Shown here piece after piece: positions 4,945-33,716 of a stretch of 38,622 bases of DNA; the first letter of the stretch is position 1, and each line of letters opens with the position of its first letter. The notes below the pieces were generated by a model that searched no databases, had not been told where the DNA came from, and saw only the letters and a program-made list of their open reading frames with translations. Origin of the DNA: Candidatus Woesearchaeota archaeon (lineage in GTDB: Archaea > Nanobdellota > Nanobdellia > Woesearchaeales > UBA10216); contig JACPTF010000007.1 of the NCBI GenBank assembly GCA_016192915.1, positions 1 to 38,622 of the forward strand, written 5' to 3'. A program made the translations under genes and the position numbers.

Positions 4945-5043
4945 CCCAAGTCGTCGTAAGACGCAAATCGGCAGTGGCCGATTGCGCAGTCCTGCTTATG
5001 CAGGACTTGCGACTGGGCGCAGTCAAGCAAAGCTTGACTTGCG
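4945..5043. repeat. Family A palindromic element, nested copy, in the tRNA-Asn leader
   Basis: The outer hairpin CCCAAGTCG (4945-4953) pairs with CGACTGGG (5010-5017). Its loop holds a complete inner double hairpin (4962-5011: CGCAAATCGG...CCGATTGCG then CAGTCCTGC...GCAGGACTTGCG). A second outer hairpin CGCAGTCAAGC-AAA-GCTTGACTTGCG follows at 5018-5043. The whole array lies between GACC (4941-4944) and GGTC (5059-5062), just before the tRNA. Confidence 0.8.
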
Positions 5044-6306: not shown

Positions 6307-8037
6307 ATGGAAGCAGTTAAAGGAGCTGTTGAGGTAGAGCAGAAGACGTCTAACCCTGTTACAAATATTGCGCTCGACACAGTGAGAATTGGAAAGCAGG
6401 CGCTTGTCTTCGTCAGCACAAGGCAGTCAGCCGAGAAAGCTGCCGAGGAAATAGGCAATCATCTGAAATTAAAAGGTGAAAAGCTTACTTCCCTGGCAGA
6501 AGAAGCCCTGCACGCCCTTTCAAGACCTACAAGGCAGTGCGAAAGGCTGGCGAGATGCATAAAGGGGGGAGCAGCTTTCCACCACAGCGGCCTGACAGCA
6601 AAGCAAAGGCAGCTGATAGAAGATAATTTCCGCAGCGGGGCCATAAAGATAATTTGCTGCACGCCCACGCTGGCAGCAGGGGTAGACTTGCCCGCCTTCC
6701 GCGCAGTAATCCGCGATTTAAAGCGCTTTTCAGAGAGAAGCGGCTACGGCTACAGCGGGTCAAACTGGATACCTGTACTTGAATACCTGCAAATGACTGG
6801 AAGAGCCGGCAGGCCAAGGTTTGACAGCGAAGGCCAGGCAGTCATCGTGGCAGGCACCGAATCAGAAGAGGAAGAACTAACCGAGCGCTACATCCGTGGC
6901 GAGCCGGAAGACATCTTCTCAAAGCTCGCGGTTGAGCCGGTGCTCCGCACTTACCTGCTTTCGCTGATTTCCACAGGCATGGTGGGGAACCGCAAGGAGG
7001 TAATGGGCTTCTTTTCCAGGACGTTCTGGTCCCACCAGTACAAGGACTTCAAGCAGCTTGAAAAAATACTTGACAAGATGCTTCTCCTGCTTGAAGAGTG
7101 GGAATTCATCAGCAGAAGCGGCAATAAGGGCACAAATCGGGATGCACCCGATTGTGCATTCGGCCAAATGCCGAATTGCACTGCTGCGCCCTCAATGTCG
7201 TCTGCTGGCGACAAGCTTCGCCTCTCCGGCGAAGTATCAACCTTCGGCAGCGGCAACGAATTCATGTCCGCATCAGAAATAAAAAATGAAGTGGTGAAGC
7301 CAACGCTGCTAGGAGCAAGGGTCGCCCAGCTGTACCTTGACCCGCTGACAGCGCACGAAATAATAGTCGGCCTCAGGAAAGCAACAGCCAAAAAAATATC
7401 AGAGCCAATGCCGTTCCAGCTGCTGCAGCTACTCTCGTCAACGCTTGAGATGAGGCCTCTGCTGAAGGTCAAAGTCAGGGAGCTTGAGGACTTCCAGGCA
7501 ATCCTTGCCGAACACGGAGGCATGCTGCTGGTGGAGGAGCCGTCAATGTTCGAGGACGGCTACGATGAGTTCCTTGCATCGGTAAAGACTGCGAAATTTT
7601 TTGACGAGTGGATTGATGAGAAGGACGAGGAATACCTGCTTGAAAAGTACGGCATAAGGCCAGGAGAGATACACGCCAAGCTTGGCAGTGCAGACTGGCT
7701 GCTTTACTCTGCAGCAGAGCTCGCAAAACTAATGCGGCTGCAGCCACTTCTGAAGTATGTTGCAAAACTCAGGTTCAGAGTGGAGCACGGCATAAAGGAA
7801 GAGCTGCTGCCGCTTACCCAGCTCAGGGGCATAGGGCGAGTCAGGGCAAGGAAGCTGTTTGACAACAGGATAAGGAACCTTGCAGACGTCAAAAAAGCAG
7901 ACACGCCCACTTTAACCCAAATTCTCGGCAGCGGAAAGCTGGCACTTGACATAAAGCAGCAGCTTGGAGAAAAGACCGAGGTTGTAAAAGAAGGGAAGAG
8001 GAAGGGGCAGATAAACCTCAAGGATTATGGCGAATGA
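6307..8037 (+). CDS. Hel308-like helicase C-terminal portion (RecA2, winged helix, ratchet, HhH), no RecA1
   Basis: A 576-residue protein matching Hel308/Hjm from motif IV onward. It shows LVFVSTRQSAEKAA (about 33-46), FHHSGLTAKQRQLIEDNFR (about 91-109), motif V TPTLAAGVDLPA, motif VI QMTGRAGRP, a ratchet region with QLYLDPLTAHEI, and the C-terminal helix-hairpin-helix LRGIGRVRARKLFDNRI. The first RecA domain with Walker A and DExH boxes is absent, and nothing upstream on this strand encodes it, so the protein cannot hydrolyse ATP alone. Residues about 275-311, in the winged-helix region, are encoded by a palindromic repeat insertion. A TATA-like AGATTAAAAACG about 27 bp before the ATG suggests a real start. 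It could be a split helicase whose other half lies elsewhere, or a decaying gene. Confidence 0.82.
   Translation: MEAVKGAVEVEQKTSNPVTNIALDTVRIGKQALVFVSTRQSAEKAAEEIGNHLKLKGEKLTSLAEEALHALSRPTRQCERLARCIKGGAAFHHSGLTAKQRQLIEDNFRSGAIKIICCTPTLAAGVDLPAFRAVIRDLKRFSERSGYGYSGSNWIPVLEYLQMTGRAGRPRFDSEGQAVIVAGTESEEEELTERYIRGEPEDIFSKLAVEPVLRTYLLSLISTGMVGNRKEVMGFFSRTFWSHQYKDFKQLEKILDKMLLLLEEWEFISRSGNKGTNRDAPDCAFGQMPNCTAAPSMSSAGDKLRLSGEVSTFGSGNEFMSASEIKNEVVKPTLLGARVAQLYLDPLTAHEIIVGLRKATAKKISEPMPFQLLQLLSSTLEMRPLLKVKVRELEDFQAILAEHGGMLLVEEPSMFEDGYDEFLASVKTAKFFDEWIDEKDEEYLLEKYGIRPGEIHAKLGSADWLLYSAAELAKLMRLQPLLKYVAKLRFRVEHGIKEELLPLTQLRGIGRVRARKLFDNRIRNLADVKKADTPTLTQILGSGKLALDIKQQLGEKTEVVKEGKRKGQINLKDYGE
7130..7237. 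repeat. Family A element plus two further hairpins, inserted in frame in the Hel308-like gene
   Basis: Double hairpin: GCACAAATCGGG pairs with CCCGATTGTGC (7130-7157), then GTGCATTCGGC pairs with GCCGAATTGCAC (7154-7181). Two more stem-loops follow: TGTCG/CGACA (7196-7213) and CTTCGCC/GGCGAAG (7217-7235). The first unit is nearly the same sequence as the copy at 33547. The reading frame is kept. Confidence 0.75.
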
Positions 8038-9468: not shown

Positions 9469-9514
9469 TCTTCTGCCTTTTTGAACAGTTCTTGATCGTT
9501 AGTTTTTGATAAAC

Positions 9515-9617
9515 CCCAAAGTCAGCTTGCGCTGACTGGGCCCAATCGTGCCGCAAGTCGCTAAAAGGCGACTGCGCACAGTCGAGCCATGCTCGACTTG
9601 TGTTTGCACGATTTGGG
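9515..9617. repeat. Family A palindromic element, nested copy, 3' of tRNA-Arg
   Basis: The first outer hairpin is CCCAAAGTCAGC-TTGC-GCTGACTGGG (9515-9540). The second outer hairpin is CCCAATCGTGC (9541-9551) with GCACGATTTGGG (9606-9617). Its loop contains a full inner double hairpin: CGCAAGTCGC...GCGACTGCG and CACAGTCGAGC-CAT-GCTCGACTTGTG (9552-9602). This is the same nested arrangement as at 4945 and 9797. Confidence 0.8.
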
Positions 9618-9671
9618 TTTTTGTTAAAAAGGTTGAGCGAGCCCGCCGGGACTTCCTCACTGGCGTTCGGA

Positions 9672-9721
9672 GCACAAATCGCTGATGCGATTGTGCCCAG
9701 TCGGTTTTGCACCGACTTGGG
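9672..9721. repeat. Family A element inside the tRNA-Arg T-loop intron
   Basis: GCACAAATCGC-TGAT-GCGATTGTGC (9672-9696) followed by CCCAGTCGGT...ACCGACTTGGG (9696-9721). It occupies most of the 91-nt intron. Confidence 0.78.
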
Positions 9722-9796
9722 CATTAGCGCCGGGCGCCAATATTTGAACCCAGATCAATCGGTTACAGCCCTTTTCCCCGCTGCTGCGGGCAAAAG

Positions 9797-9894
9797 CCCA
9801 AGACGCTTTACGGCGTCTGGGCCCAGTCGAGCGCAATTCCGCGAGGAGCGGAATGCGCAATCGGGCGTCCCCCGATTTGCGCTCTCGACTTGGG
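9797..9894. repeat. Family A element, nested copy, inside the tRNA-Arg anticodon intron
   Basis: The outer hairpins are CCCAAGACGC/GCGTCTGGG (9797-9821) and CCCAGTCGAG (9822-9831) with CTCGACTTGGG (9884-9894). The second loop holds an inner double hairpin: GCGCAATTCCGC/GCGGAATGCGC and GCGCAATCGGG/CCCGATTTGCGC (9831-9882). Confidence 0.8.
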
Positions 9895-9921
9895 CGCTGG
9901 CGGAAAAACGCTACTGTTACG

Positions 9922-11894: not shown

Positions 11895-11950
11895 GCAGCT
11901 TAGGAAACTCAGCCAGCTTAAATATTTTTTCTGTTAACAAAAATTCACAA

Positions 11951-12001
11951 CCCAAATCGAGCACTGCTCGATTTGGCCCAGTCGCTCAAAAGCGACTTGG
12001 G
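11951..12001. repeat. Family A palindromic element upstream of proS
   Basis: The simplest complete copy: CCCAAATCGAGC-ACT-GCTCGATTTGG (11951-11976) and CCCAGTCGCT-CAAA-AGCGACTTGGG (11977-12001), sharing a GGCCC linker. It lies directly before the proS TATA box (CATTTAAATACGC, about 12005-12017). Confidence 0.82.
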
Positions 12002-12045
12002 AAACATTTAAATACGCTCTACGGCTGGTTTTTGGCTGGATAATT

Positions 12046-33491: not shown

Positions 33492-33606
33492 GGGTTGATA
33501 AGGGAACTTGTCCTTGTTGCCTTCAAGCGAGGGTTGATAAGGGCAGGCACAAGTCGGGATGCGCCCGACTGTGCAGTCGGCTGTGGCCGACTTGCACTGC
33601 CCTTAT
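33492..33606 (+). repeat. tRNA-Ser leader: direct repeats and a family A element
   Basis: GGGTTGATAAGGG occurs at 33492-33504 and 33531-33543. ATAAGGGCAG (33537-33546) pairs exactly with CTGCCCTTAT (33597-33606), and the loop holds the family A double hairpin GCACAAGTCGGG/CCCGACTGTGC and GTGCAGTCGGC/GCCGACTTGCAC (33547-33597). It ends 1 nt before the tRNA. A TATA-like ATTTATAAATTG (about 33467-33478) precedes it. Confidence 0.75.
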
Positions 33607-33607
33607 T

Positions 33608-33716
33608 GCCGGGATAGCATAACCTGGTATTGCGCAAGCCTGGAAACTGCAAGTTTTCTGCAGGCGTGATAGCTTGTTCCCGCAAGGGTTTCGGGGTTCA
33701 AATCCCCGTCCCGGCG
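33608..33716 (+). tRNA. tRNA-Ser(GGA) with a 37/38 intron
   Basis: Class II tRNA. Acceptor GCCGGGA (33608-33614)/TCCCGGC (33709-33715), G73 at 33716. Anticodon stem CAAGC (33635-33639)/GCTTG (33672-33676), loop CTGGAA and A with anticodon GGA at 33642-33644. A 25-nt intron (33646-33670) with internal helix CTGCA/TGCAG sits at the canonical position. Variable arm CCC-GCAA-GGG, T-arm CGGGG-TTCAAAT-CCCCG. Confidence 0.93.

Follow-up and report, generated by a model that had tools for sequence, protein, structure and literature searches.

An in-frame palindromic insert in a Hel308-type helicase gene

The window analysed here is a stretch of 38,622 nucleotides from a Candidatus Woesearchaeota draft genome of 1.2 Mb that is 93% complete (G000), and all genomes compared with it were also draft MAGs. 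One of its open reading frames encodes the C-terminal part of a Hel308/Ski2-type helicase and contains a stretch of consecutive hairpins (Table 1). When this ORF was matched to Hel308 proteins in the PDB the matches were split at residues 269 and 318-330, with about 40-50 residues between them left unmatched. Close relatives of this gene are from Candidatus Woesearchaeota. Alignment to close homologues placed the insert at approximately residues 273-313, and nearly all of the same-genus Hel308 genes examined lack it, continuing from 273 to about 310-314. The short loop was found in the Hel308 genes of four genomes of the genus (G001, G005, G006 and G007), and the insert was absent in all of the more than 20 relatives examined from the same family or order. 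The DNA fold of positions 7110-7255 was far more stable than that of dinucleotide shuffles (z -4.4). In an AlphaFold2 model built from an alignment of 34 relatives, residues 273-322 had pLDDT values below 50 and were located between strands at 268-271 and 329-332; the insert is predicted to be a disordered loop in the wing of the winged-helix domain.

The initial annotation, made from the sequence alone, had proposed a palindromic insert of about 36 residues at 7130-7237, kept in frame at a point where archaeal Hel308 has only a short loop. The short loop and the empty site were confirmed in the relatives and a surface loop was predicted by the structure model, and the added residues are not shared by all close homologues. 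The insert is in frame as proposed, but it is longer, with about 40 residues (Table 1).

Several other observations were made on Hel308 genes. The gene in the window is seemingly split: the first RecA domain is missing from its ORF and is the only domain of a 228-aa ORF on contig C19 (L277:1408-2094), whose start is overlapped by a 425-aa ORF that by eye is homing endonuclease-like. In four family or order relatives (G016, G025, G045 and G056) the Hel308 ORF is about 1000 aa long, and near query residues 124-133 its match is interrupted by a gap of about 500 aa, an intein-like pattern. Two Hel308 genes, 88% identical in DNA, are present in G004 (L024 and L167), with their palindromic inserts at different places, and these may represent a paralogue or a mixed bin. 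In the Hel308 gene of G003 (L017) an unrelated palindromic insert was found close to the same wing loop, which suggests that the wing tolerates insertions. An ORF of G007 (L059) has a palindromic insert related to the one in G003 Hel308, and this insert itself holds an element A (see below).

Table 1. Positions in the window of the helicase gene, the layers of its insert and further hairpin elements. CM R1, covariance model of element A.
Feature	Position	Strand	Basis
C-terminal part of Hel308/Ski2-type helicase (RecA2, winged helix, ratchet, HhH), insert host	6307..8037	+	Pfam Helicase_C, HTH_61, Helicase_dom4_arc; PDB Hel308 matches
Composite in-frame insert, about 40 residues	7121..7257	+	Empty site in G001, G005, G006, G007 and relatives; disordered wing loop in AF2
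5' arm of outer element O, AATAAGGGCA	7123..7132	+	O alone in G004 Hel308 L024 (AATAAGGGCACTGATGCGCCCTTATCAACC) and in G001 Bud32
Left flanking dinucleotide CA	7131..7132	+	GGGCA/CTGATG in empty O vs GGGCA[46 nt]CACTG
Element A hairpin H1, CAAATCGGG-ATGCA-CCCGATTG, bulged A	7133..7154	+	CM R1 match, 71.4 bits; covariation
Middle dinucleotide TG, reverse complement of flanking CA	7155..7156	+	All copies tested for the rule
Element A hairpin H2, CATTCGGC-CAAAT-GCCGAATTG, bulged T	7157..7178	+	CM R1 match; covariation
Right flanking dinucleotide CA; core 46 + 2 = 48 nt	7179..7180	+	
Element O, remaining loop and first half of 3' arm, CTGCTGCGCCCT	7181..7192	+	Comparison with L024 and L002
Element B, 42-nt double hairpin inside O's 3' arm (GCCCT^TATCAACC); hairpins at about 7196-7213 and 7216-7234	7193..7234	+	96% identical reverse copies in G000 and G004
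Terminal part of O's 3' arm, TATCAACC	7235..7242	+	Comparison with Bud32 copy L002
A-type double hairpin with CG/CG flanks, not within a long ORF	4956..5017		CM R1
Related double-hairpin copy nested in larger palindromes	9546..9608		CM R1, sequence
Second-class copy, CA-hairpin-TG then CC-hairpin-GG	9670..9727	+	CM R1
Copy of element A with CG/CG flanks, lying in another palindrome's loop	9826..9887	-	CM R1
Second-class tandem hairpins (CC...GG)	11948..12007	+	CM R1
Intergenic element A copy in O-like outer stem, directly upstream of tRNA gene	33542..33602	+	Sequence match, CM R1; Rfam tRNA 33608-33716

Layers of the insert

Comparison with other copies shows that the Hel308 insert is a nested composite, in which an outer palindrome (O) carries a second element (A) in its loop and a third (B) in its 3' arm. 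O was found alone, without A (AATAAGGGC...GCCCTTATCAACC), in one Hel308 gene of G004 (L024) and in the Bud32 gene of G001, and the G004 gene thereby represents an empty site for A. In G000 the loop of O has received the 48-nt element A, and in Hel308 its 3' arm has also received the 42-nt element B.

The region 7121-7192, comprising O and A, was 99% identical (E 1.8e-30) to C12:41114-41185, which belongs to the Bud32 kinase gene of this genome (L002), where O and A are inserted in frame between HGDLTTSNMI and VYFIDFG and where the PDB Bud32 matches break. The region 7186-7242 was 96% identical, in reversed orientation, to C10:66944-67000 in a third gene of this genome. Reverse copies of element B with 96% identity were located in an lspA-like ORF of G000 (L003) and on the reverse strand of a 1018-aa aminoacyl-tRNA-synthetase-like ORF of G004 (L047). 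The initial annotation had described four consecutive hairpins, the first two as a family A copy like one at 33547. Four hairpins do lie in a row at 7133-7234, and the first two match the copy at 33546 at 89%, but the third and fourth are not family A and belong to the different double hairpin B, and the copies on C12 and C10 match the insert more closely than does the one at 33546.

These comparisons also bear on whether the added residues could be a normal functional segment of Hel308 that is conserved in the lineage, with palindromy being incidental. The helicase frame is intact across the insert, as such a segment would require, but the insert is missing in same-genus relatives, O stands alone in a same-genus Hel308 and 99% identical DNA is present in an unrelated kinase gene. 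Given the filled and empty genes and the Bud32 copy this explanation is refuted, and we give it practically no weight. Palindromy by chance was likewise ruled out, by dispersed copies that are up to 99% identical and by a search for the hairpin structure only, which gave no match in shuffled window sequence.

Two further observations concern the surroundings of other copies in the window. The tRNA gene at 33608-33716 was found by Rfam and not by ARAGORN, and may contain an intron. The intergenic region 9510-9900 consists of palindromes within palindromes in several layers, including tandem single hairpins with CC...GG feet. When the window and four element loci were searched with Rfam only tRNA matches were obtained, and no known RNA family was matched.

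Distribution of element A and its copies in genes

Element A consists of two mirror-related 22-nt hairpins with one bulged base each; the core has a length of 46 or 43 nt, to which 2 are added, and is conserved between species and between unrelated sites. A covariance model (CM R1) was built from 23 copies; 98.7% of cells were paired and changes on both sides were seen at 11 of the 17 pairs, a covariation that is partly built in because many rows were picked for paired arms. With this model element A was found in all eight genomes of the woesearchaeal genus, with 14 to 111 strand-matches in each (most sites match on both strands, so that the number of sites is about half). Beyond the genus, only three other genomes of the 145 searched in the order matched, and these weakly (E ≤ 1e-4). 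Judged from these searches, element A appears to be essentially confined to one genus of Candidatus Woesearchaeota. A search of IMG/VR for a viral origin, using two DNA patterns, gave no match.

The surroundings of about 80 further sites were retrieved and 111 distinct copies were tabulated in total, and all copy counts are lower bounds. At least 27 copies were located in ORFs with Pfam support, and 53 copies had no long ORF. The host genes included Hel308 and its paralogue, Bud32, ABCE1, SufS, a GatA-type amidase, TRM1, thioredoxin reductase (TrxB) and polyprenyl synthase, as well as aIF5B, FtsY, Elp3, OGG, NFACT, TctA, a metallophosphatase, a radical SAM protein, a helicase, glycosyltransferases and others. 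The gene copies were present in both orientations and used five of the six frames. The idea that A generally enters the loops of other hairpins was rejected, since only about 17 of 92 sites were of this type.

Core plus two was divisible by three in 26 of the 27 gene copies, and all were stop-free in frame. However, among copies that have repeated flanks and lie outside long ORFs, 37 of 43 were also multiples of three, which makes this length largely a property of the element itself. Forty-six percent of the copies were open in all six frames, as compared to 11% of dinucleotide shuffles. In an AF2 model of ABCE1 the insert formed a disordered loop of low confidence.

Given that the inserts are strong hairpins in essential genes such as ABCE1 and Bud32, they might be removed from the mRNA, by the archaeal splicing endonuclease or otherwise, and never appear in the protein. 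We find this very unlikely, as the gene copies are stop-free in frame and, with a single exception, multiples of three (a length test that is weak by itself because most intergenic copies pass it too), as a bulge-helix-bulge geometry is not apparent, and as the inserts are located in loops that are predicted to tolerate extra residues. From the open frames and the conserved flanks we infer that the inserted residues are translated.

Flanking and middle dinucleotides

Element A follows the rule NN-H1-N'N'-H2-NN, in which the flanking dinucleotide is repeated on both sides and the middle dinucleotide is its reverse complement. In 94 of the 111 copies the core was flanked by the same two bases on both sides (CG, TG, CA, TA or AG), and 88 of these 94 had the reverse complement in the middle, as compared to a maximum of 45 in shuffles. 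The covariance model takes in a single pair to either side of the middle dinucleotide and has a mild bias towards complementarity, which is absent from a structure-only finder that used the hairpins and no flank information. With this finder 179 matches with a 2-nt spacer were obtained (some sites being counted on both strands); the flanks were equal in 167 of the 179 and the middle was also complementary in 155. When pairs of copies that otherwise differed at no more than two positions were compared (71 pairs), the dinucleotide differed in 16 and the middle had changed along with it in all 16. Most copies outside the rule were tandem single hairpins of a second class, NN-H-N'N'-MM-H-M'M'. Given this complementarity between flank and middle, either the target is selected through pairing with the middle dinucleotide, or the middle is itself a copy made from the target.

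Filled and empty sites

Three genes provided clean 48-nt pairs in which a single dinucleotide at the empty site corresponds to two around the insert. In ABCE1 the empty sequence GCATAAGC is filled as GCA-TA-[46]-TA-AGC in G000, G004 and G006. In SufS the empty sequence CTGCAGCAGCTG of G006 and G004 corresponds to CTGCAG-CA-[46]-CA-(A/G)CTG in G000; G005 has the same filled form apart from one substitution upstream. In the Hel308 paralogue of G004 the filled site AGG-CA-[46]-CA-G is matched by the empty AGGCAGCTTG. The filling was patchy: in SufS the insert was present in G000 but not in G006, a relative with 90% identity, and present in G005 but not in G004; in ABCE1 it was present in G004 but not in G005, a relative with 89% identity. 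In addition, inserts were identical at 48 of 48 positions between species in which the surrounding gene was only 76-79% identical. This combination of patchy filling and identity across diverged genes requires that the element was either lost precisely or arrived at the same site more than once. An apparent further pair was seen in FtsY, where the gene of G006 (L185) has about 31 extra residues, including element A, that are absent in G000 FtsY (L277:2135-3319). The filled and empty sites and the identical copies at different places indicate that element A is mobile, and with such pairs of orthologues the way in which these elements move is directly testable.

Possible mechanism of movement

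In the explanation that we favour, several small mobile palindromes have inserted, stacked on one another, into the wing loop of Hel308, where they are translated as extra, disordered residues. We consider it highly probable that the element is mobile, enters genes in frame and is translated in place; the enzymatic step is a separate question on which our confidence is lower. Unit A comprises the 46-nt two-hairpin core and one dinucleotide, and as these 48 nt equal 16 codons the reading frame is kept upon insertion. Spread through genes would be tolerated because the insert is in frame and in surface loops, and no benefit to the host is implied.

Studies of TnpA_REP have shown that the dinucleotide cleavage site is chosen by complementarity to a guide beside the hairpin and that bulges are required (PMC8266576), and the chemistry of TnpA_REP and IS200/IS605 involves bulged mirror hairpins and joining at a dinucleotide that is complementary to a guide next to it (PMC8266576, PMC5934647). 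As element A has bulged hairpins in mirror orientation and a middle dinucleotide complementary to its flanks, a hairpin-recognising single-strand mechanism is tentatively favoured. By this analogy we tentatively propose that element A is non-autonomous and may move as single-stranded DNA with the help of a trans-acting enzyme. The enzyme would recognise the bulged hairpins of A, N'N' would pair with the target dinucleotide NN, and joining would take place just 3' of NN, as in the IS200/IS605 and REP/TnpA_REP chemistry; excision would be precise. No Y1 transposase gene (PF01797) was found in this 93% complete genome, so mobilisation by a Y1 transposase of the same genome is unsupported. The gene was absent from six of the eight genomes of the genus (incomplete MAGs), the other two containing three Y1 genes. 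No A-type hairpins were found beside these or beside the three TnpB genes of the genus, and the single TnpB gene of this genome had no A copy nearby.

The flanking dinucleotide could instead be a target-site duplication of the usual kind, 2 bp long and left by a transposase that makes staggered cuts and acts on the same mobile element (a MITE of DDE or similar type), with the middle dinucleotide merely being part of the stem. The identical two base pairs around 94 of the 111 copies and the single dinucleotide at empty sites are what such a duplication would give. A staggered cut, however, leaves unexplained that the middle tracks the target, also among near-identical copies, and no autonomous partner with such ends was found, making this explanation unlikely.

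A serious rival to the enzyme model, if in our view an improbable one, is template switching or hairpin-primed copying during replication, in which the newly synthesised strand would fold onto itself, take up a copy of the target dinucleotide as its middle and then resume on its template, so that NN and N'N' are rewritten at each event. The coupled changes of NN and N'N' are directly explained in this manner, the absence of a transposase fits, and insertions in loops of other hairpins are in excess (17 of 92, against a mean of 3.2). On the other hand, a core of 46 or 43 nt that is conserved at unrelated sites and in different species needs a mobile template, and an RNA or DNA donor would be required.

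Comparison with known systems

REPs are mostly extragenic and GTAG-tagged. Element A resembles REP/BIME sequences (TnpA_REP/RAYT, REPtron) in having short bulged hairpins, two in inverse orientation, and a high copy number, and the imperfect 20-50 nt hairpins with a conserved bulge that characterise REP/BIME are matched by its two 22-nt hairpins. It differs in that no GTAG-type tetranucleotide is present 5' of the hairpin and the flanks outside NN vary, in that the guide-like dinucleotide is located between the hairpins, in that many copies are within genes and in that the host genome is without a Y1 transposase. IS200/IS605 elements have subterminal hairpins, are inserted 3' of a short target that is read by internal guide pairing and are excised precisely. 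Unlike these elements and their MITEs, element A is without tnpA, has a target of 2 instead of 4-5 nt and is only 48 nt in its entirety. A MITE derived from IS200/IS605 needs the ends of an autonomous element, and none were found at the three Y1 or three TnpB genes of the genus.

Inverted or MITE-like repeats inside coding sequence are described for the palindromes in Nematomorpha mitochondria and for the enterobacterial RU/ERIC elements (PMC6649704, PMC2759123). Compared by description, these differ from element A in lineage and length, and the parts of these reports consulted mention no dinucleotide coupling (PMC6649704, PMC2759123).

In-frame selfish palindromes have so far been described as a peculiarity of Rickettsia and relatives, and among open-licence papers no description of in-frame coding palindromes in archaea was found. 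The system in this DPANN archaeon is shorter and better defined, and its presence in ABCE1, Bud32, SufS and TRM1 would mean that mobile DNA supplies peptide insertions to core proteins in another domain of life, with the dinucleotide rule as a sharp, testable signature of the insertion chemistry. It is plausible, although we hold this with some reserve, that element A represents an undescribed minimal type of archaeal mobile DNA: a 48-nt dumbbell-like unit whose middle reads, or is rewritten by, the target dinucleotide, which brings a 16-residue peptide into essential genes in almost any frame, and which leaves precisely or re-enters the same orthologous site across species.

The closest parallel in behaviour is offered by the Rickettsia palindromic elements (RPE) and their Wolbachia counterparts (WPE), which, as far as the consulted parts of the reports describe, are dispersed palindromes in intergenic DNA and ORFs that are inserted in frame in unrelated genes and are translated into solvent-exposed peptide (PMC3767692, PMC10969869). 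Similarly, element A enters both spacers and ORFs with the frame intact (53 copies without a long ORF and 27 copies in Pfam-supported genes), and its peptide is located in predicted exposed loops in the AF2 models of Hel308 and ABCE1. RPEs are 100-150 bp long and belong to alphaproteobacteria, as opposed to a 48-bp unit in a DPANN archaeon, and element A is moreover a double hairpin that is nested in other palindromes. No rule of the type NN-H1-N'N'-H2-NN was found in the portions of the RPE reports consulted (PMC3767692, PMC10969869). The resemblance to RPEs pointed out in the initial annotation therefore extends to behaviour, with the same DNA in unrelated genes, in frame, probably translated and in predicted surface loops, and not to membership, given the length of 48 bp, the archaeal host and the dinucleotide rule. 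Element A works like an RPE without being one, a distinction drawn from length, host and rule as described.
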